Origin: Lachnospiraceae bacterium
Lineage (GTDB): Bacteria; Bacillota; Clostridia; Lachnospirales; Lachnospiraceae
DNA: 38,288 bases
Direction: 5' to 3'
NCBI GenBank assembly: GCA_022796475.1
Contig: JAAWIS010000001.1
Span: 86,219 to 124,506, forward strand
The position numbers were made by a program, and so were the translations under genes. Shown piece by piece: positions 13,201 through 38,288 of this stretch (position 1 is the stretch's first letter; every line of letters begins with the position of its first letter). A model generated the notes under the pieces. That model saw only the letters and a program-made list of their open reading frames with translations, searched no databases and had not been told where the DNA came from.

Positions 13201-13537
13201 TCTGCTTTCTAAATTCCAGCCAGCCCTTTTTGTTTGCTGTAAAAATCCGCGGGCCAACGGCCAATATCCAGATCTTCCAAATACCGCCTTAAATCCTTCC
13301 TTTCTGGCGGCATAGCGGGTAACTGCAAAATACTATGTAAACGGCTCCGACGCCTTGCAATAACGCCGCGGCCGTCCCGGAAAAATCCGAATCTATGAAA
13401 AAGCACCAGCTGGATGCGCAGGACATGCAGCCATTTGGCCAATCCTCCTCTGTTTTTGGTATGTCTTGCGGAAAGCTTCCGGAGAGATTCCGGAAGCTTT
13501 CCCGAAACAAGAAATCTCATTCACTAATAATAGTATA
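13201..13537. other. Intergenic region with no confident gene
   Basis: A minus-strand frame of 103 codons (13209-13520) exists, rich in Arg and Leu, but its ATG has no ribosome binding site and its first codons run through a perfect palindrome (13471-13501). Stretches such as KDLRRYLEDLDIGRWPADFY look protein-like, so a decayed gene cannot be excluded. I recognise no family and do not call a gene. Confidence 0.4.
13471..13501. terminator. Perfect hairpin downstream of the SPOCS gene
   Basis: Two perfect 13-base arms (GAAAGCTTCCGGA and its complement) enclose a five-base loop GAGAT. It lies 37 bases after the SPOCS/LysM stop codon on the minus strand, which suits a transcription end, but there is no T-run on either side, so it may instead be a repeat or 3'-stabilising element. 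Confidence 0.5.
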
Positions 13538-22739: not shown

Positions 22740-22935
22740 CCGGAACATTGTTCCTGTACAACAGTCAGGCAGGTCTCCTGGCTTATCGATCCACACATCG
22801 GCCATCTTCCCGGTTTCCCAGTGATATTGCGGCTTCTGCTCCCGAAATACAGTGACGAGTTCGTACAGGATTCACACCTGTTTCCCTTTTCACCAGACCC
22901 AAAAATCCAAGCCGCTTCCAGTTAACACTGTATCA
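22740..22935 (-). promoter_or_regulatory. Cobalamin riboswitch aptamer
   Basis: Minus-strand RNA shows the hallmark B12 box AAGCCAGGAGACCTGC (22769-22784), preceded in order by GGTGAAAAGGGAA, GGTGTGAATCC, CGTCACTGTA and CACTGGGAAACCGGGAAGATG, the conserved core of the cobalamin class. The helix GCGGCTT/AAGCCGC closes part of the aptamer. It lies upstream of the cbiK-transporter unit and is followed by an intrinsic terminator, so ligand binding should repress by transcription termination. Boundaries are approximate. Confidence 0.95.
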
Positions 22936-23897: not shown

Positions 23898-24015
23898 TCT
23901 ATCCCTTTTCCTGTTCCCTTTTCATTTTGTATTTGGATCTACATTTAGGATACTACATTTTCCTTCTAATTACAAAAGTATTTTTTCGGCACAAGATACA
24001 GCGCTTTCCTGAGCC

Positions 24016-24077
24016 GAAAAACAGAAGGCTGTGTGAAATCCGCCTGTCCAATGGTACAGATTCCACACAGCCTTCTG
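24016..24077 (-). terminator. Strong terminator ending the 2-hydroxy acid operon
   Basis: On the minus strand CAGAAGGCTGTGTGGAATC pairs almost perfectly with GATTTCACACAGCCTTCTG, followed by TTTTTC. It begins 13 bases after the LarA-type gene stop. Confidence 0.9.
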
Positions 24078-24089
24078 CTATCAATTTAT

Positions 24090-25373
24090 TTAATCCATCA
24101 TGCCGTCTTCATTAAAATGCATGGGAACAGGTCCGCTTACGTAACTGATTCCCTCCTGATCCTTGATTGCTTCATAAAGAGGCTCCGATACCTGAATTTC
24201 ATTCAGGCAAAGGGTATTTTTAATATGCACCACTCTGGCTTTCTGATAGTCCAGATTATGGCAGCACCGGATACACATCAATACTGCCTCTTTGTCTGTA
24301 TTCACATACAGCGGAATCGGACAGGCATCCATCAGCCCTGTAGTCAGCACATTGGTCCAGGTTACTTCCCAATCTACCTGATTTAAACATCTTCTGGTCG
24401 TAACATCAGCCGAACCAAGGCCGCAGCCATTATGATGGGCTTCCGGTGTAATCCCCCGGATAAACAGCTTCCGCAGTTTTAGCGTATCTCCAAATGTATG
24501 AGTAATATTTCTTCCCGTTACATTCGGATCGTGTCCATTGCCGCTGATATTCTTTCCAATCTCATCAATAATCAGCACATCGATATCATCAAACTGGAAT
24601 TTTGCCATTCGTTTTTTTGCAATCTCAAGCAGGCGGGCATCGGTTTCCATAAAATCATCCCGGTTGCACACATCAATATTGCAAATATCATCGTATGCAT
24701 TCTGAACTACCCCTACCCCAAATGCAAAGGGGCATTTTTCAAGGAATTTCTCAGCAACTGGCGGAATCAGCTCGGCAAAACGGTGGAAGCCAAAACTGTG
24801 AAACATACTGGCGCCTTTATGCTTTGCAATGCCGATTGCAATCATCTTTGCCAGGCCGCTTTCGTGAGGCCCTCTGAAATCGGTGTGAGGTTTTACCTTG
24901 TTAAAAATAACAATTCCGTCTGATTCATACGCATATTTATCACAGTACAGCGGAATTCCATTTAATTCATCATACTGAACCACCTCCATGGAGGAAAGGA
25001 TCGGAACCCCCATGGTTTCCTCTGTGATATGATAGCCTTCCAGCATTTCTATCTGCCCCTGGGCGGTAGCGCCGCCATGGCTCCCCATGGATGGAATAAT
25101 AAAGGGTTCTGCCCCCCACTCTTTTAAGGTATCACAGATTACCCGAAGCATAACATCCATATCTGGAATTCCTCTGCTCCCTGCTGTAATGCAGATTCGT
25201 TTTCCCCGATACGTTTCTTTCCCCTGGACTTTTTCCAGTTCAGACCGCATATGACTCTTTACATCTTCGATTTTTGCAGGATCATAGCTTTGGCGAATGG
25301 TCACCATGTTAGGAACCGGTACATTCTCCATCCCCTGTATTGGCGTATGCACTTCTGGAAAATCAATATACAT
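24090..25373 (-). CDS. LarA-family nickel-pincer 2-hydroxyacid racemase
   Basis: Homolog of lactate racemase LarA (DUF2088 fold), 427 residues. In LarA the nickel-pincer nucleotide is bound at Lys184 and His200, with His108 and His174 as acid/base. Here His99 (PSMGSHGGAT), His163 (KVKPHTDFRG), Lys176 (ESGLAKMIAI) and His192 (MFHSFGFH) fall in matching order, with Lys-to-His spacing of 16 as in LarA. Overall sequence differs from true lactate racemase, so it is likely one of the other LarA homologs that racemise or epimerise longer 2-hydroxy acids. It is the last gene of the operon, 29 bases after the GntP-type permease, with AGGAGG before the ATG. The cofactor genes larB, larC and larE are absent here. 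Substrate is inferred only. Confidence 0.82.
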   Translation of the reverse strand: MYIDFPEVHTPIQGMENVPVPNMVTIRQSYDPAKIEDVKSHMRSELEKVQGKETYRGKRICITAGSRGIPDMDVMLRVICDTLKEWGAEPFIIPSMGSHGGATAQGQIEMLEGYHITEETMGVPILSSMEVVQYDELNGIPLYCDKYAYESDGIVIFNKVKPHTDFRGPHESGLAKMIAIGIAKHKGASMFHSFGFHRFAELIPPVAEKFLEKCPFAFGVGVVQNAYDDICNIDVCNRDDFMETDARLLEIAKKRMAKFQFDDIDVLIIDEIGKNISGNGHDPNVTGRNITHTFGDTLKLRKLFIRGITPEAHHNGCGLGSADVTTRRCLNQVDWEVTWTNVLTTGLMDACPIPLYVNTDKEAVLMCIRCCHNLDYQKARVVHIKNTLCLNEIQVSEPLYEAIKDQEGISYVSGPVPMHFNEDGMMD

Positions 25374-25402
25374 CTTAACTCCTCCTTATCTGACAGCTTA
25401 TT

Positions 25403-26695
25403 TTAAGCCATCCCAAATAAATAGAACAGAATAATCATGAATACTAATGTTATAAGGGGAACAACACAGGTTGTAATAAATATCGGAAAATATGAATGTT
25501 TATGGTCATTTTCTGTCACATTTAATACCGATACTACTAAACCGTTATGAGGAAGGGAATCCAGGCCTAAGCTTGCAAGTGCACTGACTCTGTGAAGGGC
25601 TTCTACATTAACGCCCAACGGTACAAAGTAGTCTTTGATAATCGGCAGGACAATGCCAAGTCCGCCGGAACCGGAACCGCAGACACCTGCCAGAATCGTA
25701 ACGGCCAGGCCGGAGGCGATTAACGGACTTCCTCCAATACCGGTAATTGCCCCAATCAGCGTGGCAAATGCAGGTGTAGCCTGTACCAGGGAGCCAAACC
25801 CGACAACAGCAGAGGTATTAAACAGTGAACCTGTTCCATCCTTCGTTCCATCACTTAAATGTTTCCAGATTTCCTTCCAGGGAATCTGCTTGTAATAGAA
25901 TATCAATGCAGAAATAAAGCCTACAAACAGCGCAACCTCTGCCGAAAGTTTAAATATGTTCAATACAACTAATAAAATAATCATGGGAACTAACGCAATG
26001 AAAAAATTTGGCAGTTCTTTTCCCTTTTTTAATTCCAGCATTGCCTTGTCTTTTTCCGTCATCTCAAAATGCATCCCTTTTTTCTTGCAGCGGTTTGCAT
26101 ACCAGATCATGAAACTGAACACAAAAGCAGCTTCAAATGCCGCTGCAATCAAACCGGGAACAAAGGCTGACGTTGCAGGTGTTCCCAAAATTTGCCCAGG
26201 CATTAAGTTTTGAATCTGCGGGGAACCTGGCATCATACCGGTAAACGTACCGGCACCTGCAAAATATACAGCCGGAATCAGCGTTCTGGAAATATCGCCT
26301 CTCTTAAACAAAGAAACCATCAGCGGATACAGGGTAAACATACATACAAATACAGAAACACCGCCGTAAGTAAGCACTGCTCCGGCAATTAGGATTGAAG
26401 GGATAATAAATTTATCGCCTAGTTTCTCAATAATCGTTTTTGCAATCGCGTCTGCTGCACCGCTGATATCGGTCAGCTTTCCAAATAATGAACCTAACAC
26501 AAAGATGAAAAAGAACTGGCCAAAATATCCGGAAAGCCCTTTTACATATGTTGTAGTTAAATGCTCTATGGGATTCATCCCTGCTGTAAGAAGCAGAAAA
26601 ATACCAGAGATCATAGCAGAAAAGAAAATCGGAACCCCTTTAAAACACAAAAATATCAATAATACCAAACTTAAAATTACTAAAAAAATCTGCAT
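25403..26695 (-). CDS. GntP-family permease
   Basis: Secondary transporter of about 12 hydrophobic segments (430 residues) related to gluconate:proton and other organic-acid symporters. Typical pieces are VLGSLFGKLTDISGAADAIA, LTYGGVSVFVCMFTLYPLMV, TFTGMMPGSPQIQNLMPGQ, VCGSGSGGLGIVLPI and SLGLDSLPHNGLVVSVLNV. The family carries sugar acids and other hydroxy acids, which suits its place next to the LarA-type racemase: the two are only 29 bases apart. The start follows AAAGGAGAG. The exact substrate is unknown; a 2-hydroxy acid is my inference. Confidence 0.87.
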   Translation of the reverse strand: MQIFLVILSLVLLIFLCFKGVPIFFSAMISGIFLLLTAGMNPIEHLTTTYVKGLSGYFGQFFFIFVLGSLFGKLTDISGAADAIAKTIIEKLGDKFIIPSILIAGAVLTYGGVSVFVCMFTLYPLMVSLFKRGDISRTLIPAVYFAGAGTFTGMMPGSPQIQNLMPGQILGTPATSAFVPGLIAAAFEAAFVFSFMIWYANRCKKKGMHFEMTEKDKAMLELKKGKELPNFFIALVPMIILLVVLNIFKLSAEVALFVGFISALIFYYKQIPWKEIWKHLSDGTKDGTGSLFNTSAVVGFGSLVQATPAFATLIGAITGIGGSPLIASGLAVTILAGVCGSGSGGLGIVLPIIKDYFVPLGVNVEALHRVSALASLGLDSLPHNGLVVSVLNVTENDHKHSYFPIFITTCVVPLITLVFMIILFYLFGMA

Positions 26696-26737
26696 ACTTT
26701 CTCTCCTTTATAAAAAACGATTGCAGTACCTTAGTTT

Positions 26738-27955
26738 TTATATTTTTCGAATCCCCATGGCAAACATCAGGCTTACAGCTCCGCTTGCTGCCATATAAAG
26801 CAATGTGGTCATATAAGAACCGCTTGCATCAAACAGGATTCCGGCAATGGTTCCTCCAAATGAAGCTGCCAAAAGGTTTAAGTTCATCACAGAAAAATTT
26901 ACCGGATAATGGCGCGCCCCATACGAATAATTTACATAGGCGGAAATGCTGGGATTTAACCCCCCATAAGAAAACCCGCAGCATATAAATCCTGCCACTA
27001 CCAGAGAAAATGCCTGCAGGGCCACTGCCCCAACCAGAATCACGGAAGAGAAACTAAAGCAAATCCCTACCATGGCCATGGTCACTTTTCGGCCTTTCCG
27101 GTCAAACAGGTTCCCGAAAAACACCCGTCCTAAACCATTAAAAATGGAAATCAAGCCCACTACCGTGGCAATTCTTCCGGCTTCCACTGCAGGCCCAACT
27201 TCTTTTGCAATCCCGCTGGCCTGGCTGATTAATGCCATTCCGGCTCCGCCTACCGTTATCGTCCAAAGGAAAAACAGCCAGAAACTTGGCCTGGACACCA
27301 TCTGTCTGGCATCCAGATCCAGTCCTTCCCCCTTAGTCTTCTTCTTTTCAGGAATCACTACATTTTGAGCCTTTAAATCTTCTTTTGAAGGTTTGGCAAA
27401 AAAGAAACCGCACATTGCAAACACAACTGCCAAAATAACACCGAATCCAAAAAATGAATTCCGCCAAGCTTCTATCCCCTCTCCTGAAGGGGTTACAGCC
27501 TGATACACCTTCCCTACAATAAAGGAACTAATGCCGAACCCCATCAAAAGAATACCGGAAATTAACCCTTGCTTATCTGGAAACCATGCACTCATGGCAC
27601 TTAGCACTGCATTGTATACAAAGCCAGAAGCAAAACCGCAGAAACCGCCATATCCAAGGTACAGCATTCCAGGTGAGGCGGCCCGGCTTGCCAGCAAAAA
27701 TCCGGCAAAAAACAGTCCGCCTGAAATCCAGACATGAAATCTTACTTTTAACTTCCCTGACATCATCCCCCCTGCCATACAGCCAATACAAAAGCTCATC
27801 ATGCAGATGGTGAACGTTAACGATAACTGCGCCTTGCTCCAATCTGTAAAATACGCCCCCAGCGGAAGGGAAAGTACACTCCAGGCATACACAAGCCCGG
27901 CTGAAAGCAGCATAATTACCCCAACTGCCGCATAGATCCATCGGTTAAGCTTCAT
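26738..27955 (-). CDS. OFA-type MFS transporter
   Basis: Twelve-helix major facilitator protein of 405 residues, of the oxalate/formate antiporter (OFA) group. The first helix and motif read YAAVGVIMLLSAGLVYAWSV and LSLPLGAYFTDWSKAQLSLT, typical for this group; the central loop EKKKTKGEGLDLDARQM is cytoplasmic, and the motif GLGRVFFGNLFDRKGRK marks the start of the second half. OFA proteins exchange monocarboxylates or dicarboxylates, so it could export the acid product in exchange for substrate. It is first after a 195-base repeat region that separates it from etfA, and has a moderate AAAGGATTGG ribosome binding site. Cotranscription is likely because no terminator is visible between. Confidence 0.87.
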   Translation of the reverse strand: MKLNRWIYAAVGVIMLLSAGLVYAWSVLSLPLGAYFTDWSKAQLSLTFTICMMSFCIGCMAGGMMSGKLKVRFHVWISGGLFFAGFLLASRAASPGMLYLGYGGFCGFASGFVYNAVLSAMSAWFPDKQGLISGILLMGFGISSFIVGKVYQAVTPSGEGIEAWRNSFFGFGVILAVVFAMCGFFFAKPSKEDLKAQNVVIPEKKKTKGEGLDLDARQMVSRPSFWLFFLWTITVGGAGMALISQASGIAKEVGPAVEAGRIATVVGLISIFNGLGRVFFGNLFDRKGRKVTMAMVGICFSFSSVILVGAVALQAFSLVVAGFICCGFSYGGLNPSISAYVNYSYGARHYPVNFSVMNLNLLAASFGGTIAGILFDASGSYMTTLLYMAASGAVSLMFAMGIRKI

Positions 27956-27970
27956 AATCCAATCCTTTCG

Positions 27971-28142
27971 TTACTGTGAAAGTCCTGCCGCCGGTTAGGC
28001 GGCCTAAGTTCAGGGATTCCAAGTGCGCCCGCCACACTTTCCTGTGTGCGGTGCGTCCGCTGCCGGGCGCATGGAGGTTACTGTGAAAGCTCAGCGCAAA
28101 GCGCTGAGCTGTGCGAAAACGGGGCCGCAACGCGGCAACTTC
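27971..28142. repeat. Composite intergenic palindromic repeats, copy 2
   Basis: Three structures lie between etfA and the MFS gene. GCCGCC-GGTTA-GGCGGC forms a hairpin at 27987-28003. TGCGCCCG (28024-28031) pairs with CGGGCGCA (28064-28071), with CACAC/GTGTG inside. AGCTCAGCGC-AAA-GCGCTGAGCT (28088-28110) is a perfect palindrome and the partner of the copy at 2554-2615. The 12-base sequence TTACTGTGAAAG occurs at both 27971 and 28078, so two related units seem joined in tandem. No gene is supported here. Confidence 0.8.
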
Positions 28143-28150
28143 ATCATAAA

Positions 28151-29353
28151 TTAATGATTGGATCCATCATGAAACTTATTCAGCTCTTCTATAATCTCCG
28201 GGATTACTTGATACAAATCACCTGCTATTCCAATATCTGCAATATCAAAAATCGGTGCGCTTTCATTGGTATTAATTGCCACAATTAATCCGGAATTCTG
28301 CATTCCTGCCACATGCTGAATCGCCCCGCTGATTCCACATGCAAAGTAAATTTTGGGCTTCACCGTAGTACCTGTCTGCCCTACCTGGTAAGCGTGGTCG
28401 ATCCAGCCTGCATCCACTGCTGCCCTGGAAGCGGCAATCGTTCCGCCCAGCCGTTCTGCCAGTTTCTTTAACAGTTCAAATCCTTCCGGCGTTCCCAGTC
28501 CCATACCGCCAGATACAATAACCTCTGCATCTGTCAGCGATACCATTTCTTTCACGCTCTTTACTACTTCCAGTACTTTTGTCCGGATATCCCCTTCCTG
28601 AAATGCTGCAGAAAGCTTCACTAACTGGCCTTTTCTCCCTGGCTGTCTGGAAGCTTTTTCCATTACGCCGGGACGTACCGTGGACATCTGAGGCCGATGG
28701 TTTGGACAAACAATGGTTGCCATTAAATTTCCGCCAAAAGCCGGACGGGTCTGCATAATTCCTTTTGTTTCCGGATTAATTTCCAGTTTCGTGCAGTCGG
28801 CAGTCAGCCCTGTATTGCACTTTACTGCCAGGCACGGCCCCAGATCACGCCCAATATGGGTTGCTCCAAGAAGCACAATTTCCGGTTTATACTGGGTAAT
28901 GGCTTCATAAATTGCTTTGGTATAGGCGTCTGTCGTATACTGTCCCAGTTCTGGAGCATCCGCATAATATACCTTATCTGCCCCATATTCAAACAGCTCC
29001 TCTGCCAGACCTTCTACTCCGCTGCCGCACAGCACAGCGCAAAGTTCACAGCCAATTGCCGCTGCTAACTTACTGCCTTCCCCTAACAGTTCCACAGCCA
29101 CCTGCATTAATTTCCCATCTCTTTGCTCTGCAAATACCCATACGCCGTGGTATTGGCTTAAATCGGCTGCCTGCTTCCCGTCATCAACCTTTTCAATTGC
29201 CTGGAACGGACATGCCTCCACACACTGTCCGCAGCCAGTACAGGCGCTGCCGATTACCGCCTTCTTTTCCTCCATAGTAATGGCGGTAAAGGGACAGCTT
29301 TTTACACATTTGGTACATCCTTTACATTTATCCTTTATAACCTGAACTGCCAT
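28151..29353 (-). CDS. etfA: EtfA with N-terminal 2[4Fe-4S] ferredoxin domain
   Basis: Alpha subunit of an electron-transfer flavoprotein. I choose ATG 29353 (400 residues; GGAGGGAG upstream). Residues 10-20 ([11 protein letters not shown]) and 38-48 ([11 protein letters not shown]) are two complete four-cysteine cluster motifs, followed by the EtfA domain; the FAD-binding C-terminal part reads [40 protein letters not shown] and [19 protein letters not shown]. Most EtfA proteins lack the ferredoxin part. CarE of the caffeyl-CoA reductase of Acetobacterium has it, and that complex bifurcates electrons. Gene order dehydrogenase-etfB-etfA matches. Bifurcation here is inference. Confidence 0.94.
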
Positions 29354-29377
29354 TCGTTCTCCCTCCTCGCTATGCAA

Positions 29378-30163
29378 CTAAATCAAATGCTTCTCTGCCA
29401 GTCTGCCAACTAAAGCTTTCGCCATATCGGTTATGCTTCCGGACAGCATCTCCCCTTTTCCTTTCTGCGGCGGGGTAAAGGAACGGAATACCTGGGTAGG
29501 TGATGCATTCAGGCCGCAGTCTGCCGGATCCAATGCCACATCTGTATGGTTCCATACGGTAATTTCCTTTTGATACGCATCTACAATAGCGCCAACCGAC
29601 ATATATCTTGGTTCATTTAATTCTTTTACGCATGTAAGCAGGCAGGGTGTCTGCACATTAATTACTTCGTAACCGTCTTCCATCTGCCTTTGTACCGTTA
29701 CGTTTCCTTCTCCCATCTGAATATCCTGAACGTAAGTAACTACCGGAACTCCTAATCTCTGAGCAACCTGAGGCCCAACCTGAGCGGTATCGCCATCAAT
29801 TGCCTGACGGCCGGCAAATATCACATCCACTCCCTCTACTTTCCGAATTCCGGCTGCAATGGTAGTGGAAGTTGCGCAGGTATCTGCACCTCCAAATGCC
29901 CTGTCGCTTAACAAATATGCCTCGTCTGCACCCATAGCCAGGCATTCCCTTAACATATAAGTAGCCTGAGGCGGCCCCATAGTTAAAACGGCTATGGTCA
30001 CATTTGGATCCTTATCTTTTAACTGAAGAGCAGCTTCTAACGCATTGGCATCATCCGGATTTAAAATACTGGGAACTCCGTCACGAATCAAGGTTCCTTT
30101 TACCGGATCGATCTTAACCTCATTTGTATCCGGAACTTGTTTCACACAAACTAAAATCTTCAT
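29378..30163 (-). CDS. etfB: Electron transfer flavoprotein beta subunit
   Basis: Partner of EtfA, 261 residues. It has the family start MKILVCVKQVPDTNEVKIDP, the NPDDANALEAALQLKD segment, MGPPQATYMLRECLAMGADE and the conserved AGRQAIDGDTAQVGPQVAQ loop, which in bifurcating ETFs helps bind the second flavin and NADH. The start follows AGGAGG by about eight bases. It lies 24 bases before etfA and 11 after the acyl-CoA dehydrogenase stop, so the three products are surely made together and act as one complex linking NADH, ferredoxin and the enoyl-CoA. Whether it truly bifurcates needs the bound flavins to be known; the sequence is only compatible with it. Confidence 0.95.
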   Translation of the reverse strand: MKILVCVKQVPDTNEVKIDPVKGTLIRDGVPSILNPDDANALEAALQLKDKDPNVTIAVLTMGPPQATYMLRECLAMGADEAYLLSDRAFGGADTCATSTTIAAGIRKVEGVDVIFAGRQAIDGDTAQVGPQVAQRLGVPVVTYVQDIQMGEGNVTVQRQMEDGYEVINVQTPCLLTCVKELNEPRYMSVGAIVDAYQKEITVWNHTDVALDPADCGLNASPTQVFRSFTPPQKGKGEMLSGSITDMAKALVGRLAEKHLI

Positions 30164-30174
30164 GGTTTTTCCTC

Positions 30175-31323
30175 CTATTTTTTAAGCAGTTTGCTCCCAA
30201 TTACCATCTGCTGTACCTGGCTGGTGCCTTCGTAAATGGTAAATACGCGGCAGTCACGGAACATCCTTTCAATCTTATAGTCCTTAATAAAACCGTAGCC
30301 GCCATGGATTTGCACTGCCTTTTGTGCAATCTCGTTGCAGACCTCAGAAGCATAGTATTTTGCCATGGAAGCGTTTAAGGTTGCATCCTGTTTTGTATCC
30401 ATCAAATATGCCGCTTTATAAACTAACTGCTTGGCCGCTTCCAGCTTAGTTGCCATTTCTGCAATCATAAAGCTGATCGCCTGGAAGCTTCCGATAGGAC
30501 GGCCAAACTGTTTCCGCTCTTTTGCATATTTAACGGCCTCATCCAGACATCCCTGAGCCACGCCGATGGACTGGGCTGCAACTCCAAGGCGGCCAGTGTT
30601 TAAAGTCTGCATTGCAATCTTAAAGCCGTCGCCCTCTTCTCCTAAACGGTCACATTCCGGAACTACTGCATTCTCCAAAATAATATCAGAAGTAGCACAT
30701 CCGATTACACCCATCTTATTTTCCGGTTTCCCGCAGGATACCCCTTCTGCATGCATATCCACCACAAAAGCAGACAACCCCTTATTTCCCTTTGTAAGGT
30801 CGGTTTTTGCAAAAACGACTGCATAATCGGAAAGAGGGGCCATTGTAATAAAACATTTACGTCCGTTTAATATGTAATGATCCCTTTCTTTCCTGGCAAC
30901 TGTGGCCACAGAGCCGGCATCCGAACCAGCTCCCGGCTCTGTCAGCGCAAAGGCCAGCTTCTTTTCTCCCGTTACCACAGGTCTTAAATACTTCTCCTTC
31001 TGCTGATCATTTCCTGCCAAAAGCAGAGGGCCGCCAGACAATGAGTTGGGGCTGGACACATAAATACTTGCCACGCCAGACACTCTTGCGATCTCTTCCA
31101 TTACCAGTACATAGGCACGTGCGTCTGCACCCTGGCCCCCTAATTCTTTAGGAATCTTAATTCCGCAGAATCCGGCCTTAGCCATTTTATCTAAAATTTC
31201 CTCTGGAAACACCTCTGTTTCCTCAACCTGATCCAGAACTTCTTTGGTCAGTTCTTTTTCCGCAAAATCACGGGCCAATTTTCTGATCAGTTCATGCTGC
31301 TCTGTAAAATATGCTTCTGCCAT
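30175..31323 (-). CDS. Acyl-CoA dehydrogenase (enoyl-CoA reductase direction)
   Basis: FAD-dependent enzyme of 382 residues that interconverts acyl-CoA and enoyl-CoA; with Etf and in this operon it most likely reduces the 2-enoyl-CoA made by the dehydratase. Features include FALTEPGAGSDAGSVATVA (FAD/substrate contact), CFITMAPLSDYAVVFAKTD, KERKQFGRPIGSFQAISFMI and the catalytic Glu365 in FTIYEGTSQVQQ, at the same place as in butyryl-CoA dehydrogenase. AAGGAGG precedes the ATG. Comparable roles are known for CarC (caffeyl-CoA), AcdA in the aryl-propionate pathway of Clostridium sporogenes and acryloyl-CoA reductase. Acyl chain specificity cannot be told. Confidence 0.94.
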   Translation of the reverse strand: MAEAYFTEQHELIRKLARDFAEKELTKEVLDQVEETEVFPEEILDKMAKAGFCGIKIPKELGGQGADARAYVLVMEEIARVSGVASIYVSSPNSLSGGPLLLAGNDQQKEKYLRPVVTGEKKLAFALTEPGAGSDAGSVATVARKERDHYILNGRKCFITMAPLSDYAVVFAKTDLTKGNKGLSAFVVDMHAEGVSCGKPENKMGVIGCATSDIILENAVVPECDRLGEEGDGFKIAMQTLNTGRLGVAAQSIGVAQGCLDEAVKYAKERKQFGRPIGSFQAISFMIAEMATKLEAAKQLVYKAAYLMDTKQDATLNASMAKYYASEVCNEIAQKAVQIHGGYGFIKDYKIERMFRDCRVFTIYEGTSQVQQMVIGSKLLKK

Positions 31324-31374
31324 ATTCTCTGTTTCCTCCTTATTCTCTCAGAACACGTTCGAAAATACTCATAC

Positions 31375-32982
31375 TCAAATCCCTTTTCTTTCCTGCACTG
31401 CCATTTCTTTTGCCATCTCTTTAAGAGCCTTCAGCTTAATCTTCCCGCTTGCATTCATGGGAAATTCATGGAAAGGCAGGACAAAAGCAGGAACTTTATA
31501 ATGGGCAAGCCTTGGCTTTATATAGTCTAAAAGTTCTTGTTTATTCAAAACACAGCCTGCTTTGGGAATGATGCAGGCAGCTATCTCCTCCTGCAGTACC
31601 TCTGCCGGAACTCCTACCACCTTAACCGACGAAACCCAATCTAACTGCAGAATCACCTGTTCGATCTCCTGAGGCGAAATATTCTCCCCTGCCCGGATAA
31701 TCATTTCTTTCAGTCTTCCGGTTATATGCAGGTGCCCGGTTTCATCCAGCCGCCCAATATCTCCTGTCCGCAGCCAGCCGTCTTTTGTAAATGCCTTTTC
31801 ATTTGCTTTTGGAAGGTTATAATAACCCTGCATCACATTGTAGCCTTTTACCTGAATTTCCCCTTGTTCCCCGTTTTTTAAGATCTCTCCTGTTTCCCAG
31901 TTGCTAAACCGCACTTGGACAAATTCTGCAATCTTGCCTGCTGAAACAGCCTTCTCCTCTTTCGTTTCATCCCAGTCTGCAATGGATACACAAGGCGAGG
32001 TTTCTGTCTGCCCATAAGAAGGCTGCAAATGCATATTGTAAAATCTGCCGCTGATCTCCTGATATTCCCTTTCTGTCATGCTGGAACCGGCAATAATCCC
32101 AGACTTCAAACCGCCTGCATCCCGGTCCAAAAAAGCTTCCTTTCGGTTCATAGCCAGAAACATACTGGGCACCCCGTTTAATACGGTACAATGGTAACGG
32201 TCAATTGCGTCCCACACCTGCCCGGTTTTAAAGTACGGGATCAGATACATGGACATTCCACCCAGCAAACAGGAAATTATCCCTGCCGTAATCCCAAAGC
32301 AGTGGAATAATGGTACGGTAATGCACATTTTGTCATCCCGGCCCCACCGCATAGACGAAACCATGCAGGATGCATTATTTACTACATTATAGTGGCTTAA
32401 CAGCACTCCTTTCGGAAGGGATGTAGTTCCTGAGGTAAAAATCATGCAGGCCGGATCTTCTGGTGAAACCAGTTTCTTCTTTTCCTGAATTTTTCTTGTA
32501 GTCTGGGGCAGTTTATCATCCGGCAGAAAGCTGTCTTCGCCCATCCACCTGCCGGCTTCTTTCTCGTTAATATGGATAAAATGCCGGATTTTAGGCGTTT
32601 CATTCCGAAGCCGGGTCACAATATCTTCATACAAAATGGTCTTATACCCTGCCCCGTAATACAGCACTTCCACATCCGCATAATTCAAGATTCCCTTTAC
32701 TTCTTCCTGTCGGTAGCAGGTATTAATCAGAACCGGAACTGCACCAAGTTTCACCAGTGCCAGAAATGTAAATACCCAGTTAGGACTGTTTACACTCCAA
32801 ATACCCACATGAGTTCCTTTTTGAATCCCGTACCGCTCCATATTCCCTGCCAGATAATCAGAAACCGTATCCATCTGCCGGAAGGTACAGCTCCATTCCC
32901 CGGTTTCCATAGCAGTATGCTCTCCATCTAACTGGACCCGTTCCCACAGACACTGGCCAATGGTCTTATTCATAAGTTTCAT
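31375..32982 (-). CDS. AMP-forming acyl-CoA ligase
   Basis: ANL-superfamily enzyme (535 residues) that uses ATP to make an acyl-CoA through an acyl-adenylate. Core motifs are complete: P-loop MIFTSGTTSLPKGVLLSHY, YGQTETSPCVS, GWLRTGDIGRLDE, the hinge GRLKEMIIRAGENISPQEIE and the C-terminal catalytic Lys in NASGKIKLKAL. In the C. sporogenes aryl-lactate cluster (fldL) and the caffeate operon (carB) such a ligase primes the pathway by making the first CoA ester, after which CoA is recycled by transfer. That role fits here, since a CoA-transferase gene is just upstream. GGTGA precedes the ATG at 32982; ATG 32973 is an alternative. Confidence 0.92.
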   Translation of the reverse strand: MKLMNKTIGQCLWERVQLDGEHTAMETGEWSCTFRQMDTVSDYLAGNMERYGIQKGTHVGIWSVNSPNWVFTFLALVKLGAVPVLINTCYRQEEVKGILNYADVEVLYYGAGYKTILYEDIVTRLRNETPKIRHFIHINEKEAGRWMGEDSFLPDDKLPQTTRKIQEKKKLVSPEDPACMIFTSGTTSLPKGVLLSHYNVVNNASCMVSSMRWGRDDKMCITVPLFHCFGITAGIISCLLGGMSMYLIPYFKTGQVWDAIDRYHCTVLNGVPSMFLAMNRKEAFLDRDAGGLKSGIIAGSSMTEREYQEISGRFYNMHLQPSYGQTETSPCVSIADWDETKEEKAVSAGKIAEFVQVRFSNWETGEILKNGEQGEIQVKGYNVMQGYYNLPKANEKAFTKDGWLRTGDIGRLDETGHLHITGRLKEMIIRAGENISPQEIEQVILQLDWVSSVKVVGVPAEVLQEEIAACIIPKAGCVLNKQELLDYIKPRLAHYKVPAFVLPFHEFPMNASGKIKLKALKEMAKEMAVQERKGI

Positions 32983-33012
32983 ACTGTCACCATCATCATA
33001 ATCGACTATGTA

Positions 33013-33133
33013 GCAGCGAAGGTTTCTTCGCCTGCAGCAGGTTATTTTTGTTTCATAGAACCATTTTCCCGTGAAACAGAAATGGCTGCCGAATTTCAGG
33101 AATCAATATTTTGTCCTCTCCTTCAGCAGCCAT
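33013..33133 (-). other. Three hairpins between CoA-transferase and ligase genes
   Basis: On the minus strand GCAGCCAT/ATGGCTGC (33082-33089 with 33126-33133), GTTTCA/TGAAAC (33050-33055 with 33072-33077) and GCAGCGAAGG/CTTCGCCTGC (33013-33035, one bulge) can form in series inside a 166-base gap. No T-run follows any of them, so they are not obvious terminators; an RNA-processing or stability role within the operon is possible. Confidence 0.5.
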
Positions 33134-33148
33134 CCTTCCTGTTAATTT

Positions 33149-34384
33149 TTACCGTTCATCTTTCCACACAAACAGGGTTCCTTTTTCCTGCATCTCCTGT
33201 ATCTGTGCATCATCATAGCCCAGTTCTTTCAGGATTTCTGGTCCCTGCTCACCAATCAATGGACCTGCTTTGTATTCCGGTACACCCATTTCCTGGAACT
33301 TAACGGGAAGGCGAACCAGCCTTCTGGTATTTCCGTTTGAATATGTCATATCATAAAAGCAGTTATTTGCCTCTGCCTGCTTATCATTCCGGATTTCAAT
33401 CCAGTTTTGGCAAAGTGCAAAGGGAATATCTGCTGCCTCCAGAATTGAACTCCACTCGCTGGCAGTCTTCTTCATAAACTGTTCCATTACAATATCATAA
33501 ACCTGGGTTCCTAAGCCCTTTGCCTGGCAGGTAAGGATAGGGAAGTAGTCCTCATTATCAGCCAAATCCTCTCTGCCAATAGCAGCAATAAATTTCTTGT
33601 AATATGTGTTGTAGTCCGGCATACAAGTCTGGATAAACCGATCATCCTTGGTCCTCCAGGCTGCATTAAAGGGATTTGCCCCCTCCCTCACGTCGATAGG
33701 ATACTGCTGTGCAATTCCTTCGTAATTAGATGCCTGAACCATCATTCCCATATTGTAAACAGCGCTTTCAAATAATGAGGTTTCTACCTTTTCCCCAATC
33801 CCTTTTGTTTTTGCCTGATACAAAGCAGCTAAAATTCCAGCCGCCAGGTTCATGCCCACATTATGATCCCCAAGGCCAGGCACGCCATTAAACGGAACGG
33901 TTCCTTTCTGACGAAGGGAATCAAAATAGCCGCCCCGGGCAAAAAATGCAGTAAAGTCAAATCCTGGCAGATCCTTATCCGGACCATACTCGCCGTATCC
34001 GGTACAAATGGCATAAACCAGCTTAGGATACCGCTCTTTTAAAGTTTCATAGTCCAGTCCTGCCCTCTGAAGAGCCTGAACTCTCCAGTTGGTAATCAGT
34101 ACATCTGCTTGATCCAGAAGTTTAAAAAACGCTTCTTTGCCCGCTGGATCCTTCATATTCAGAGAAATACAGCGCTTATTTGCATTCTCCAGATCCCAAG
34201 TGGTATTTTCATACATATCCAGAGGCCTTCCCTCTGACGGGGCCGTATGCCTTAAAGGATCCCCCTTTGCTGATTCGATTTTAATTACATCTGCTCCTAA
34301 ATCTGCCATAAACCTTCCGGCAGAAGCGGCTGCAATAAAAGTTGCAAGTTCTACAACTTTAACGCCTTCTAATGGTTTGCTCAT
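33149..34384 (-). CDS. Class III CoA-transferase, FldA/HadA type
   Basis: CaiB/BaiF family enzyme (411 residues) that moves CoA from the product acyl-CoA to the incoming (R)-2-hydroxy acid. The catalytic Asp is Asp143 in LPGFDFTAFFARGG, followed by VPFNGVPGLGDHNVGMNLAA and GIGEKVETSLFESAVYNMGM. These segments, and the C-terminal NGNTRRLVRLPVKFQE, resemble cinnamoyl-CoA:phenyllactate CoA-transferase (FldA) and 2-hydroxyisocaproate CoA-transferase (HadA) more than formyl- or carnitine-CoA transferases, judged from memory of those sequences. AAAGGAG precedes the ATG. Its place between the dehydratase and reductase genes supports this role; substrate is not settled. Confidence 0.9.
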   Translation of the reverse strand: MSKPLEGVKVVELATFIAAASAGRFMADLGADVIKIESAKGDPLRHTAPSEGRPLDMYENTTWDLENANKRCISLNMKDPAGKEAFFKLLDQADVLITNWRVQALQRAGLDYETLKERYPKLVYAICTGYGEYGPDKDLPGFDFTAFFARGGYFDSLRQKGTVPFNGVPGLGDHNVGMNLAAGILAALYQAKTKGIGEKVETSLFESAVYNMGMMVQASNYEGIAQQYPIDVREGANPFNAAWRTKDDRFIQTCMPDYNTYYKKFIAAIGREDLADNEDYFPILTCQAKGLGTQVYDIVMEQFMKKTASEWSSILEAADIPFALCQNWIEIRNDKQAEANNCFYDMTYSNGNTRRLVRLPVKFQEMGVPEYKAGPLIGEQGPEILKELGYDDAQIQEMQEKGTLFVWKDER

Positions 34385-34494
34385 ATAAATGGGCTCCTTT
34401 CATAAATTATTCTTAATTCAAACATGCTGGTAAATCTTTCTGCTGCTTCCTGTTGCCTTTGCAGCAAGCTGTATTGCTTATCATGCCCGTTTCT

Positions 34495-35616
34495 TTATTC
34501 TGCTGTGCCCTTAGTGGAAATCATATGAAGCACATAAGGAATCATAACAACCGGAATAGTTAAGTATCCAAGGTATGCATACCCAACGGATACAATCTTG
34601 TTTAAGCCAAGCTGTGCAATTAAGAATGCAACAATGGTGCAAACCAAGGTAACAACAATAACGTTTCTTCCCGGCTTTGCCGTTGGATCAAATTCCTTGT
34701 CAATCGCTTTGCACACACGGTTTGACATACCGGCAATCATATTCACTGCTGTTGATACGGAACCTAAAACAATCAGGATGGAAATAATCGGACGAAGCAG
34801 ACCTGGCGCAACTCCTTTATTTACCAAAATTAACAGCGGGATACTGGCCTGGGCAAATTCCGGATCATCTGTAATTGCCATCAGTCCAAGAACTGCCATA
34901 AGGCAAATCACTGCATTTACACATAAACCATAGGTCATGGAAGTTTTTGCATCATCCGGACTTTCAAATGGTTTTGCATGCTGAACCAAAAGCCCGATGG
35001 AAGCTAGCTGGAACGCTGCATATACAATTCCTGTCCAAAATGCTTTTCCTGCCGGCGCCGGATTTGCAGCACTGGCAGAAATATTTGCTGTAATGCTTCC
35101 CCACTGTGCAATAATGTTCGGGATATATACAATAAACAATCCGGCCACAATCAGCACAGACAAAGTAGCTGCAACTTTGCGGACAACATTCGTTCCATAC
35201 ACGGCAACGATAAAAATGAAAATTCCTACAAAAACTGTTCCAACCCAGTGATTGATCCCGAACGCGCTTTCCATAGTGCTTACGCCTGTAGCAAAAGCTG
35301 CTGCCGGAGCCACACAGATTGTAACAATATAAACTAATTCATATAAATTGGAAAAAATCGGCGAATATTTTCCATAAAAACTGTCGTTAAAGCTTTTATA
35401 ATCGTATACTTCATGTTTTTTGGCATATTTCAGGGCATACCACTGGTAAAATGCTCCAATACACTGTGCTATAATACAGGTAATAAACGCCCACACACCA
35501 AACTGTACAAAATACTGCCTTAACTGGTTGCCAGATGCAAATCCACCGCCAAACTGAGTTGTAAACCATACAAACGCCACACCTACTGTAACTGACATTT
35601 TATCTTTACTTATCAT
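34495..35616 (-). CDS. YkvI-family membrane transporter
   Basis: Integral membrane protein of 373 residues with about ten helices. The N-terminus VGVAFVWFTTQFGGGFASGN is the glycine-rich, broken first helix typical of the LeuT-fold amino-acid/sodium symporter superfamily, and the family is named after B. subtilis YkvI, function unknown. Later helices include LYELVYIVTICVAPAAAFAT and PLLILVNKGVAPGLLRPIIS. It lies between the dehydratase and CoA-transferase genes, 89 bases after the former, so it probably imports the pathway substrate or a precursor amino acid. Sequence alone gives no ligand. Confidence 0.85.
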   Translation of the reverse strand: MISKDKMSVTVGVAFVWFTTQFGGGFASGNQLRQYFVQFGVWAFITCIIAQCIGAFYQWYALKYAKKHEVYDYKSFNDSFYGKYSPIFSNLYELVYIVTICVAPAAAFATGVSTMESAFGINHWVGTVFVGIFIFIVAVYGTNVVRKVAATLSVLIVAGLFIVYIPNIIAQWGSITANISASAANPAPAGKAFWTGIVYAAFQLASIGLLVQHAKPFESPDDAKTSMTYGLCVNAVICLMAVLGLMAITDDPEFAQASIPLLILVNKGVAPGLLRPIISILIVLGSVSTAVNMIAGMSNRVCKAIDKEFDPTAKPGRNVIVVTLVCTIVAFLIAQLGLNKIVSVGYAYLGYLTIPVVMIPYVLHMISTKGTAE

Positions 35617-35705
35617 ATTGTGTTCTCCCTGTCATTTTCTTTTTCCGATGTGTATCTACTTTACCTGCCGCTTACTTGTTTATCATGCAATTTGGATTTA
35701 GCCAA

Positions 35706-36818
35706 TTAACACATTTCTTTTAAAGCCTGAATCATAGTGCCCGCCTGCTCGTAATTTACCATCTGGCGGTCGACTTCAATGTTTAAGTTTAACAGCCCTT
35801 CTGCTTCACAAGCCCTTTTAATGGGAACATAGTCAAATTCCTCTGGATCACAGAACTTGGTCATCAGAACTACAACGCCTTTTGCATCATGCTGCTTTGC
35901 CTGCCGGATGATATAATCTACCCGCTTCTTATCACGGTCATACAGTAAGGTACAGTGATCCATATCTGCAAACTTTTGAGCCAGGGCATCTAAGGGGTTT
36001 TTCATTTCCGGCACATCAGTCCGATACTGTCTGGATTCATGAGCCACATCATCAAAAACAACCTTAATTCCATTATCATCAAATATCTTTAACAAACCAG
36101 GAGAGTCTGCCAGAATACCGCTTACCAGTACCCGCACTTTTCCTTCTGCTTTTGGACCGGCTTTTAACTCCTCATTTAATTGCTTAACAATCCGGGTATG
36201 TTCCTCCGGAAGCATAAACCAGGCGCTCTTAAATACATCGCTCCGCTGTGCTGCCGTAACCTCTGCTTCTGCTGCAATCTCTGCAAACTCACGCATTACT
36301 TGATTGTGCTCATTATAAATTTTAATAGATTCTGCAAGGGCAAACTCAGAAAACTGTGCTCCGGTAGCCACTGATAAATCACTGATCACACGCTGATAAC
36401 CGGCCTTTGTAAACTTGATTCCGTAATCTGGCTTCCGGTTTTGTGGGTAAGTCATAGGGATAAAGGGGATGCCCTTTACTGCATATTTCCAGTTCTGTCC
36501 CAAGGTCTTTAACGAGTCACAGAGGGACGGGATTACGATCGCAGAAACGCCCTGGTATTCTCCACGAATTCCCAGTTCCAGAATGGTCTGCATAATGGAA
36601 CAGATAAAGGCCGGATAATACTTTTTCGCCTCGTTGATCTCCATATCTGCTCCCCAAACACCCATAGGAACCAATCCCATTGAATGGATGATTTCCTGGG
36701 GGGTATAAACCGGAGCAACTGCCACTACCTTTCTTCCCTGAGCCAGGTATTTTTCCTTCTGCTTGTTGGGAGATGCCGCTACTTCATGAAGCTGCGCAAA
36801 TAATTCGTTTACTGCCAT
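35706..36818 (-). CDS. 2-hydroxyacyl-CoA dehydratase beta subunit, FldC/HadC type
   Basis: One of two [4Fe-4S]-bearing subunits of an (R)-2-hydroxyacyl-CoA dehydratase, which removes water through a ketyl radical after a one-electron activation. The 370-residue protein is of the HgdB/FldC/HadC family: PVYTPQEIIHSMGLVPMGVW, FICSIMQTILELG (Cys73), VIPSLCDSLKTLG (Cys100) and TKFCDPEEFDYVPIKRACEA carry the conserved cysteines that should ligate the cluster. AAAGGAGG precedes the ATG and overlaps the end of the alpha gene (two-base gap), so the subunits are translationally linked. The activator ATPase that injects the electron is not encoded in the window. Confidence 0.94.
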   Translation of the reverse strand: MAVNELFAQLHEVAASPNKQKEKYLAQGRKVVAVAPVYTPQEIIHSMGLVPMGVWGADMEINEAKKYYPAFICSIMQTILELGIRGEYQGVSAIVIPSLCDSLKTLGQNWKYAVKGIPFIPMTYPQNRKPDYGIKFTKAGYQRVISDLSVATGAQFSEFALAESIKIYNEHNQVMREFAEIAAEAEVTAAQRSDVFKSAWFMLPEEHTRIVKQLNEELKAGPKAEGKVRVLVSGILADSPGLLKIFDDNGIKVVFDDVAHESRQYRTDVPEMKNPLDALAQKFADMDHCTLLYDRDKKRVDYIIRQAKQHDAKGVVVLMTKFCDPEEFDYVPIKRACEAEGLLNLNIEVDRQMVNYEQAGTMIQALKEMC

Positions 36819-36820
36819 CT

Positions 36821-38056
36821 TTATTTCCCTCCTTTATTTGCTTCCATGATTTCCATCAGGCCCTGGACGCGGGTATCATACTGTGCTTCTGAGAAGTTTC
36901 TTGGGTCTGCCTGGTCGCCGTCGAAAGAAGTTACCGGAATTCCGCATGCAGCGCCAATCTGGCGGCTCATTTCCGGCATAAATCCAGACCACAGCTTACA
37001 GGAACGGTTGGTATGAACCAAAAGGCCTTCTACATGGTTATCTCTGCACAGTTTGATTCGCTTATCTCTGGAGTGCTCTAAATTCATACAGTTGGGTACA
37101 TTGGCATAAGCACGGCACATTCCATCAAAATCATCATAGATAAATCCGAACGCATCCGCATAAATGGTAGTAACCATATTAATTCCTCTGCTCTTTAAGC
37201 CGGTAGAAGTAGCCCTAAGCCATGGCCAGCAGGCAATTCCCTCAAACATGATCCTGTATTTTTCTTCTGCACGGAAGGTAGATACGCCCTTTTCATGATT
37301 CTCAATATATTCCTTTAACAAGGTTTCCATGGCTTCTCCGGCTTCTGCCTTCCCTCTGGCAGTTACCATAACTGCCATATGGTTTAACAGGTCAAAACCA
37401 TTAAATGGCGACGGTACATATTTTGCCTGGGAGGTTGCCTCAATCCAGGCACGGCTTGCCCGTCCTGACAGCTCCATAACTTCTTTAAACCGCTCATCTG
37501 TCCATTTCTTTCCTGTAATTTCCTCAAGCTGACGGATAGCATCTAAAAACTGTGCCTTTATGTATTCCGTTTCTGCATCCGATACTTCATAATCCGGATT
37601 AAAGGGGATATCGATCATAATCATGGGGATATCCAGTTCCTTTGCCAGGTTTTCATACCACTTGATCATACAGTTGCAGATATTATTGCAGCAAAGCATG
37701 AAATCCGGCTGAGGCATATCCTGCTCCGGCGCCTCCTTCAGCTTTGCGTATGCAAGGGAAATTCTGGCATACGCACAGATATCATTGGAATACCCCTCGC
37801 CTTCACTTACATTGCACATCCGCTCTCCGCCGCCTCTTGCAGCAATTCCGGCAGCCTGGTTTTCCGGATAGCACACATGCAGCCCTAAGGTTTCCGGAAT
37901 CTCTACCGGAAAATTACTGGCGCACCATCCAATTTTCTCTCCCCGCTTTTTTGCTTCCATGGCATCACTGTAAGCCTTTGCCGCAATCTGTCCTAATTTA
38001 AACTTTGCTGAATTGGGATCCGGTGCCGGCCTGCTCTTTTTTACTTCCTCTGCCAT
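36821..38056 (-). CDS. 2-hydroxyacyl-CoA dehydratase alpha subunit, FldB/HadB type
   Basis: Alpha subunit, 411 residues, partner of the preceding entry. Diagnostic segments are EKIGWCASNFPVEIPETLGL (Cys45), VCYPENQAAGIAARGGGERM, LCCNNICNCMIKWYENLAKE (Cys122, 123, 127, 129) and VHTNRSCKLWSGFMPEMSRQ; three of these Cys would hold the [4Fe-4S] cluster, leaving one iron site for the substrate. The resemblance is to the phenyllactyl-CoA and 2-hydroxyisocaproyl-CoA enzymes rather than to 2-hydroxyglutaryl-CoA dehydratase. ATG 38056 is chosen because GGAGG lies nine bases upstream; TTG 38062 would be too close. It is the first gene of the operon visible here. Confidence 0.94.
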   Translation of the reverse strand: MAEEVKKSRPAPDPNSAKFKLGQIAAKAYSDAMEAKKRGEKIGWCASNFPVEIPETLGLHVCYPENQAAGIAARGGGERMCNVSEGEGYSNDICAYARISLAYAKLKEAPEQDMPQPDFMLCCNNICNCMIKWYENLAKELDIPMIMIDIPFNPDYEVSDAETEYIKAQFLDAIRQLEEITGKKWTDERFKEVMELSGRASRAWIEATSQAKYVPSPFNGFDLLNHMAVMVTARGKAEAGEAMETLLKEYIENHEKGVSTFRAEEKYRIMFEGIACWPWLRATSTGLKSRGINMVTTIYADAFGFIYDDFDGMCRAYANVPNCMNLEHSRDKRIKLCRDNHVEGLLVHTNRSCKLWSGFMPEMSRQIGAACGIPVTSFDGDQADPRNFSEAQYDTRVQGLMEIMEANKGGK

Positions 38057-38153
38057 ATCCAATTACCTCCTTTAGTTTTCCCCTTATGGGGTTACTGAAT
38101 CTATTGCCACACGCCCTTTAAAGCAAAGGCATGTAACCTTTATTTTTGCTGCG
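38057..38153 (-). promoter_or_regulatory. Leader of the 2-hydroxy acid operon
   Basis: This 97-base gap holds a weak promoter candidate (TTGCTT and TAGATT, 17 bases apart), an imperfect hairpin ACATGCCTTT/AAAGGGCGTGT and a tight CCCC-ATAA-GGGG hairpin (38080-38091) just upstream of the AGGAGG. The second could modulate access to the ribosome binding site. No known riboswitch is recognised. Confidence 0.4.
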
Positions 38154-38288
38154 TTATTTGAAACTTTCCCTGAACTGCCTGCAAAATGGTACTAGTGTTC
38201 TGTCTGGTTCATATATGGTAAAATTCCGCCGAATATTTTTCTGAGAGTGCTGCTCCACAAACGAAGGCGTAGCGGTTGCTACGTCGAG
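38154..38288 (-). CDS. C-terminal end of an unidentified gene, 5' part outside window
   Basis: A minus-strand frame is open from the right edge to a TAA at 38154-38156 and gives 44 residues, including SFVEQHSQKNIRRNFTIYEP and DRTLVPFCRQFRESFK. It ends 97 bases before the dehydratase alpha gene. The composition looks protein-like, and the end is reminiscent of the C-terminus of LysR-type regulators, but that is a weak impression. It does not resemble the end of a dehydratase activator. It may be the operon's regulator or an unrelated neighbour. Confidence 0.4.
   Translation of the reverse strand, partial: LDVATATPSFVEQHSQKNIRRNFTIYEPDRTLVPFCRQFRESFK

Follow-up and report, generated by a model that had tools for sequence, protein, structure and literature searches.

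A LarA homologue encoded with a 2-hydroxyacyl-CoA dehydratase and a CarCDE-like reductase in a Lachnospiraceae bacterium: possible scavenging of 2-hydroxy acids

What is a LarA-type racemase homologue doing in an operon for the dehydration and reduction of 2-hydroxyacyl-CoA? The question is raised by a stretch of 38,288 nt (the window) from a Lachnospiraceae bacterium, which forms the end of contig JAAWIS010000001.1 (our C57; 86219-124506 of 124506) in a 3.77-Mb draft genome of 170 contigs. Eleven co-directional genes occupy the minus strand between 24090 and 38056, each an uninterrupted open reading frame, beginning with hadB and ending with larA (Table 1). We think it probable, though well short of assured, that this operon scavenges a ready-made 2-hydroxy acid as electron acceptor, with LarA inverting the stereoisomers. 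Handles beginning with L, G and C denote our loci, genomes and contigs, and percentages given for proteins are identities, to the window's protein unless stated otherwise.

The dehydratase is of the HadBC/FldBC/HgdAB type, with two PF06050 subunits, the cluster cysteines and the Ser and Glu residues. Its alpha subunit finds its best PDB match in 3o3m (C. difficile HadB), aligned almost end to end, and C84, C117, C346, S37 and E55 of that structure all face identical residues in the window's HadB; we take the cysteines to be those of the cluster and S37 and E55 to be active-site residues. The best family models are HadB for the alpha subunit (NF052455, 497 bits, under the cut-off of 750) and HadC for the beta subunit (NF052456, 425 bits, under 700); identity with the Had (isocaproate) pathway was rejected, since these equivalog cut-offs are not reached. 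On a HadB tree, which omits one duplicate (L273) and one fragment (L213), the core clade comprises 18 rows (support 100/99), at a long distance from both C. difficile HadB and the acrylate-type enzymes. Its sister is a group with both Fld-type enzymes and enzymes linked to a glutaconate CoA-transferase (HgdAB-type, our label).

For the reductase, chains of 6FAH, the CarCDE structure from A. woodii, are the best PDB matches of all three subunits by wide margins: 604 bits for the acyl-CoA dehydrogenase (ACD) against CarC (next match 396), 426 bits for EtfB against CarD (next 279) and 637 bits over 394 residues for EtfA against CarE (next 350). EtfA carries the N-terminal ferredoxin domain of the CarCDE type, with two CxxCxxC motifs, and RnfC is encoded in the genome (522 bits, cut-off 246). 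The type III CoA-transferase is 67-71% identical to those of six Fld-type loci and 38-41% to those of L286, L287 and L289. We liken the ligase, by its position, to what we know as CarB and FldL. The third gene product has no Pfam or NCBIfam match and is presumably a YkvI-like permease; its relatives share 50-93% in several core clusters and 27-28% in others, one of those at 27% giving a weak AA_permease_2 match under the cut-off.

The LarA homologue scores 500.6 bits against the NCBIfam equivalog NF052515 (group 22), above the cut-off of 400. All 46 aligned rows have its R67, H99, H163, K176 and H192; in a wider alignment S occupies position 67 in one of 63 rows of unlinked LarA, that is, LarA standing apart from dehydratase clusters. 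According to the available text of PMC11770544, LarA1 has the catalytic pair H108 and H174 and binds the nickel-pincer nucleotide (NPN) through R75, K184 and H200; H99 and H163 match the former and R67, K176 and H192 the latter in a forced global hhalign alignment of modest probability (58%, E 1.4e-5). In the same alignment T164 stands opposite a gap, D165 opposite F175 and F166 opposite F176, and the pocket is therefore not clearly polar. The C-terminal domain fails to align to lactate racemase, and LarA1 positions 358/359 are unmappable. An AlphaFold model (pLDDT 93.1, pTM 0.89) retrieved 13 PDB matches with Foldseek at E <= 0.001 (TM-score 0.43-0.54, identity 14-18%), all of them LarA-like, with the broad-spectrum I. 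pallida enzyme at the top; this count includes 4nar, which is titled a putative uronate isomerase but matches a lactate racemase. PDB searches gave no match with the single LarA sequence and chance matches only with a profile. Ten LarA positions, such as N279, are common to two groups of linked LarA, each being present in no more than 35% of 63 others.

Genes for the cofactor are also present: LarB (292.9 bits) and LarC (460.3 bits) are encoded side by side on contig C116 and LarE (280.7 bits) on C145. Profile searches of the genome found no second LarA (with the lactate racemase model, none at 1e-30), and one match under the LarA-model cut-off reads, in our own reading, as a DUF362-like ferredoxin protein. 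Since no other LarA was found, the NPN pathway is presumably kept for the operon's LarA homologue. If NCBIfam shares the numbering of PMC7583248, group 22 is absent from the 13 tested homologues in the available part of that paper, and the numbering of PMC11770544 is unmapped; in the available text of the latter, another homologue, LarAH52, may act on indolelactate. The earlier note on this DNA had claimed a LarA-type enzyme, a CarCDE-like reductase, the dehydratase subunits, a CoA-transferase, an AMP-forming ligase and GntP and major facilitator superfamily (MFS) permeases, and all of these family assignments hold.

Does the pairing of LarA with a dehydratase recur? A search for LarA yielded 86 relatives in named genomes, of which 80 loci were kept. 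HadB or HadC lies in the fetched stretch of ten of them (L085, L086, L090, L095, L098, L102, L133, L136, L138, L147), and L089 has HadI, the CoA-transferase and the ligase with LarA on a 6.3-kb contig. Four more are linked to GntP: L083 and L084 by GntP itself, L087 by MFS and GntP, and L088 by EtfBA, MFS and GntP. In the remaining 65 loci, many of them short-flanked, no other core protein exceeds 60 bits except a 31% HadI-like protein in L137. GntP accompanies larA in eight of the 80. The group-22 cut-off is exceeded by all 14 LarA proteins scored from linked or GntP-linked loci, among them the window's (L084, L087, L088 and L138 were left out of this scoring). On a quick tree of 110 LarA proteins, which omits the fragments L143 and L161 and five duplicate copies, linked LarA occur in three places: an 11-row group with the window (support 98), L095 with L098 and L102, and L136 with L138. 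L092, L094 and L107, unlinked in the fetched DNA, sit on the same branch as the second group. The fewest changes required are three; this count takes in 12 linked and 33 unlinked rows whose flanks reach 5 kb or more on each side and ignores the 65 others. The linked clusters come from Clostridia and Coriobacteriia, two phyla, and differ in gene order.

When the dehydratase was the starting point instead, matches at the chosen thresholds came from 31 of 397 family genomes and 22 of 391 class genomes. LarA belongs to the cluster in five (G000, G253, G647, G732, G554) of the 14 distinct genomes with a core HadB of at least 66%; G210 and G224, also among the 14, are cut by contig ends, and neither had a LarA match in the family-genome search. 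The search for LarA outside the cluster covered genomes other than G869 and G727. Close relatives such as L201 (HadB 92%) and L202 (85%) have the core without GntP and LarA. As the LarA-less core is the commoner form, GntP-LarA can be regarded as an optional add-on module. The genomes of L083, L084, L087 and L088 encode a window-type HadB elsewhere in the draft (88-97%). Compared with L085, the window shares 92% in LarA, 89% in GntP, 75% in HadB and 48% in the ligase, and compared with L090, 87% in HadB and 73% in LarA; given such uneven identities, the clusters are mosaics. LarA presence changes seven times on the HadB tree. Relatives of the window LarA at E <1e-20 exist in only 27 of 397 family genomes, so chance neighbours should be very rare. 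Judged from these neighbourhoods, the LarA-dehydratase pairing is real and recurrent, not accidental.

Some further neighbours of LarA were recorded in these loci. In L106, L110, L111 and L114 it stands beside IclR-, MhpF- and MhpE-like genes (our labels), which suggests a different substrate, and in L113, L123 and L160 beside DUF1537- and/or PdxA2-like genes (our labels), a hint that four-carbon sugar acids are epimerised at C2. L083 (426-1761), L084 (5712-7075, by reading) and L090 (8672-9954) have genes for an enoyl-CoA hydratase and a MaoC-type protein close to GntP-LarA or LarA.

Whether the cell makes the acid or takes it up was approached through the fld aryl-lactate cluster, which consists of fldL, fldA, fldI, fldBC, acdA, etfBA and fldH. 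We take a six-row clade on the HadB tree (L276-L281, support 100/99, HadB 61-63%) to be Fld-type by its resemblance to that cluster. All six loci have an L277-like dehydrogenase (74-100% to L277, which supplied the FldH query) together with BrnQ-like and aminotransferase-like genes, and an LdhA-like gene is present in L286, L287 and L289. An FldH-type dehydrogenase above 60% was found in none of the 19 distinct core loci (20 in all), several of which are cut by contig or stretch ends; weak FldH/LdhA relatives occur in two core loci (L204 37%, L271 33%), and the best FldH match in the window's genome is 33%. Core clusters often have permeases instead. Because no core locus has such a dehydrogenase and permeases are often present, these gene sets favour an acid that is imported ready-made over one made by the cell, and its configuration would then not be under the cell's control.

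The operon would accordingly work as follows, if we infer the reactions, their order, the stereochemistry, the bifurcation and the substrate from the observed gene content, families, cofactor genes and neighbourhood. The GntP, YkvI-like and MFS permeases would import the acid and may export the product. The LarA homologue, a putative nickel-pincer enzyme, would bring the two C2 configurations of the free acid into equilibrium. The ligase would prime the cycle, and the CoA-transferase would recycle CoA onto the (R)-2-hydroxy acid, from which the activator-dependent HadBC/FldBC-type dehydratase would split off water, leaving the 2-enoyl-CoA. The CarCDE-like complex would reduce the latter with NADH, probably bifurcating electrons to ferredoxin, and the reduced ferredoxin could be used by Rnf. 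The saturated acid would be released when its CoA passes to the next substrate.

Likely all eleven genes are carried on one transcript. The first of them, hadB, starts with ATG at 38056, preceded by AAAGGAGG, and the intergenic gaps measure, in the order of transcription, 2, 89, 110, 166, 51, 11, 24, 195, 42 and 29 bp. The rho-independent terminator after larA has a folding energy of -40.8 kcal/mol, where 200 shuffled sequences average -18.6. The gap between the CoA-transferase and ligase genes also folds well (z -5.4), with a hairpin followed by UUUCUGUUU, and the etfA/MFS gap contains a 10-bp hairpin without a U run. The locus had been described before as eleven co-directional genes with small gaps and one strong terminator; the gene count, the strand and the terminator stand, whereas three of the ten gaps exceed 100 bp and two gaps contain additional hairpins.

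It could be argued that GntP and LarA form a separate sugar-acid module, in which GntP imports an aldonic or other polar hydroxy acid and LarA epimerises its C2 for another pathway. GntP is classically a permease for gluconate and sugar acids, and UxaA-, IlvD/Edd-, DUF1537- or PdxA2-like genes (our labels) are found near LarA in 13 of 55 unlinked loci, or in 16 of 55 when MhpE/F-like genes are included (same-strand open reading frames of at least 100 aa within four genes were counted). In L083 and L084 GntP-LarA stands beside the enoyl-CoA hydratase and MaoC genes, and the 16.0 and 13.8 kb fetched contain no dehydratase gene (the upstream flank is 4.8 kb in L083, ended by the contig, and 10 kb in L084), and the closer agreement of the window with L085 in LarA and GntP than in HadB would give the module a history of its own. 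However, linked LarA occupy three places in the tree; L095, L098, L102, L133, L136, L138 and L147 are linked without a GntP match; the L083 and L084 genomes encode a window-type HadB elsewhere; and the window operon has no sugar-acid dehydratase, kinase or aldolase. A separate module therefore seems rather unlikely to us. Less probable still is an acrylate pathway, in which the operon would turn lactate into propionate with the help of an L/D-lactate racemase. The ACD, EtfB and EtfA do match acryloyl-CoA reductase models, all under the cut-off, the MFS protein scores 240 bits against the L-lactate MFS transporter model NF049980 (cut-off 320), and for Megasphaera elsdenii expression of a lactate racemase alongside the acrylate pathway is reported (PMC12342382, available text). 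The HadB of the acrylate-type loci L215 and L219 is nevertheless only 39% identical to that of the window and distant in the tree, among solved structures CarCDE is by a wide margin the nearest to the reductase, and the window LarA falls outside the lactate racemase family. We give a similarly small chance to a dehydratase that acts on 2-hydroxyglutarate or another polar acid rather than an aryl or branched-chain one, with LarA making the (R) form. The sister position of the core clade to a group that includes glutaconate-CoA-transferase-linked as well as Fld-type enzymes would suit this idea, as would GntP and some of the neighbourhoods of unlinked LarA; but the core loci contain no match to glutaconate CoA-transferase, and the CoA-transferase itself is close to those of the Fld-type loci. 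All in all, aryl- or alkyl-lactates appear slightly ahead of polar acids as candidate substrates, and among lactate, phenyllactate, indolelactate and 2-hydroxyisocaproate the dehydratase tree makes lactate the least likely.

The preferred reading, scavenging of a ready-made 2-hydroxy acid with stereo-inversion by LarA, also has findings that weigh against it. The sugar-acid-type neighbours of unlinked LarA have been mentioned, and the two gaps with stable hairpins leave room for separate control. The core clusters without LarA are the majority (nine of 14 genomes), so the pathway does not depend on the racemase. Some of the linked dehydratases are of other types, without a CarCDE-like reductase: L133 and L147 have HadB at 57-58% and ACD at 25-29%, and L136 and L138 have HadB at 49% and ACD at 38%, so that some of the recurrent pairings involve a related pathway, not this one. 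T164 and D165, beside a catalytic His, are present in 57 and 38 of 63 unlinked LarA, respectively, and are therefore not markers of linked LarA. Finally, the small activator (HadI/FldI) was not found in the draft genome by a PF01869 search, which returned one 1430-aa protein above the cut-off and two weaker matches. The scheme of the earlier note is plausible as regards the families, the recurrent pairing, repeated in other lineages in the genome-neighbourhood search for the same set, and the uptake rather than synthesis of the acid; the acid that LarA may racemise is not necessarily the dehydratase's own, and the activator is missing at the contig end.

The absence of the activator is probably an assembly gap, because the contig breaks off in what would be the gap between HadI and HadB, within a repeat that has 54 matches in the genome. 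The break lies 232 bp upstream of hadB, and four close relatives (L303, L304, L305, L306) have GntR and HadI immediately before that gene. L304 follows the window's gene order from GntR and HadI via HadB to MFS, L303 covers GntR to ACD, L305 GntR to the ligase, and L306 GntR-HadI-HadB. L304 differs from the window by an additional gene for a metallo-beta-lactamase-fold protein between etfA and MFS, and in its genome GntP-LarA sits on a different contig (L083). The matches of the terminal repeat of about 99 bp fall partly on both strands, and the repeat is a likely cause of assembly breaks. The metallo-beta-lactamase-fold protein is found between etfA and MFS in the relatives L304 (15155-16171), L088 (1765-2775) and L003 (2458-3438), and a 42% relative of it adjoins larE in the window's genome.

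Among known systems, the Fld aryl-lactate pathway resembles the operon in the ligase, the type III CoA-transferase, the activator (in relatives), HadB, ACD and Etf. Unlike it, the window operon has no FldH-, aminotransferase- or BrnQ-like match and does have a CarE-like EtfA with ferredoxin domain, the GntP, YkvI-like and MFS permeases and LarA. The Had 2-hydroxyisocaproate system of C. difficile consists of the same kinds of enzymes, with a HadB at 47% (L286, whose first residues are those of 3o3m), but its CoA-transferase is at 41%, and L286 has LdhA and no ligase, LarA or GntP match. The caffeyl-CoA reductase CarCDE of A. woodii, the best match of the three reductase subunits, serves free hydroxycinnamic acids without a dehydratase or racemase. 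In C. catus, according to the available text of PMC8914356, the lap cluster encodes a putative lactoyl-CoA epimerase, a methylmalonyl-CoA-epimerase homologue to which inversion of the CoA ester is attributed, and the acyl-CoA dehydrogenases are unlinked to the cluster; the likeness lies in a dehydratase with a CoA-transferase, a permease and a putative stereo-inverting enzyme. In lap-like clusters, however, HadB is only at 39%, and the window operon has no Pct match. Two family genomes contain such acrylate-type clusters (L215, 4083-11179; L219, 8616-15747) with Pct, epimerase-like, HadI, HadBC and lactate-permease-like genes (our labels). Identity of the operon with the acrylate pathway was rejected, as the dehydratase tree sets these lap-like clusters well apart from the window's enzyme.

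The acrylate pathway thus already provides a known case of stereo-inversion in front of an (R)-dehydratase. The contrast drawn earlier with the aryl-lactate and isocaproate pathways is fair, but it missed this precedent (PMC8914356 and PMC12342382, as far as their available texts go). New are the combination of a Fld/Had-like dehydratase with a CarCDE-like reductase and a group-22 LarA, and its recurrence. No report of LarA in a HadBC/FldBC-type cluster was found among titles and abstract beginnings in open-licence PMC, and the word "dehydratase" is absent from PMC11770544 in its available text. One may speculate, and we do so tentatively, that group-22 LarA are racemases for (S)-aryl- or (S)-alkyl-lactates from other gut bacteria and that the operon is a cross-feeding route to aryl- or alkyl-propionate, with energy conserved via bifurcation and Rnf. 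If this is true, a LarA group represented by a family model alone would gain a function, and the conversion of gut (S)-2-hydroxy acids into reduced acids would be explained. A single gene would set whether a gut bacterium uses both enantiomers of a 2-hydroxy acid or one, which would make the fate of the (S) acids testable by genotype. It would also link a nickel-dependent cofactor with reductive fermentation outside the acrylate pathway and offer a starting point for assigning LarA group 22.

Table 1. Features of the operon and its flanks, in the order of transcription (positions in the window).
Feature	Position	Strand	Remarks
Multicopy repeat ending the contig	38190..38288	.	54 genome matches, itself included, many at contig ends
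hadB leader up to the repeat	38057..38189	-	activator and GntR genes expected past the contig end, as in relatives L303, L304, L305, L306
2-hydroxyacyl-CoA dehydratase alpha subunit, HadB/FldB-like	36821..38056	-	PF06050
2-hydroxyacyl-CoA dehydratase beta subunit, HadC/FldC-like	35706..36818	-	PF06050
Membrane permease, YkvI-like	34495..35616	-	label presumptive
Type III CoA-transferase, FldA/HadA-like	33149..34384	-	PF02515
AMP-forming acyl-CoA ligase	31375..32982	-	PF00501, PF13193
Acyl-CoA dehydrogenase, CarC-like	30175..31323	-	best PDB match CarC of 6FAH
EtfB, CarD-like	29378..30163	-	best PDB match CarD of 6FAH
EtfA with N-terminal 2x[4Fe-4S] ferredoxin domain, CarE-like	28151..29353	-	best PDB match CarE of 6FAH
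MFS transporter, oxalate/formate or monocarboxylate type	26738..27955	-	PF07690
GntP-family permease	25403..26695	-	PF02447
LarA homologue, nickel-pincer-nucleotide isomerase group 22	24090..25373	-	NF052515
Rho-independent terminator after larA	24015..24075	-	long stem, then TTTTT; z -7.7

Two RNA elements lie elsewhere in the window. A cobalamin riboswitch (RF00174, 87.8 bits) at 22751-22930 precedes a CbiK-like chelatase gene and ABC-transporter-like genes of the minus strand (our labels), and a COG2827 RNA (RF02938, 68.8 bits) is found at 13334-13410.

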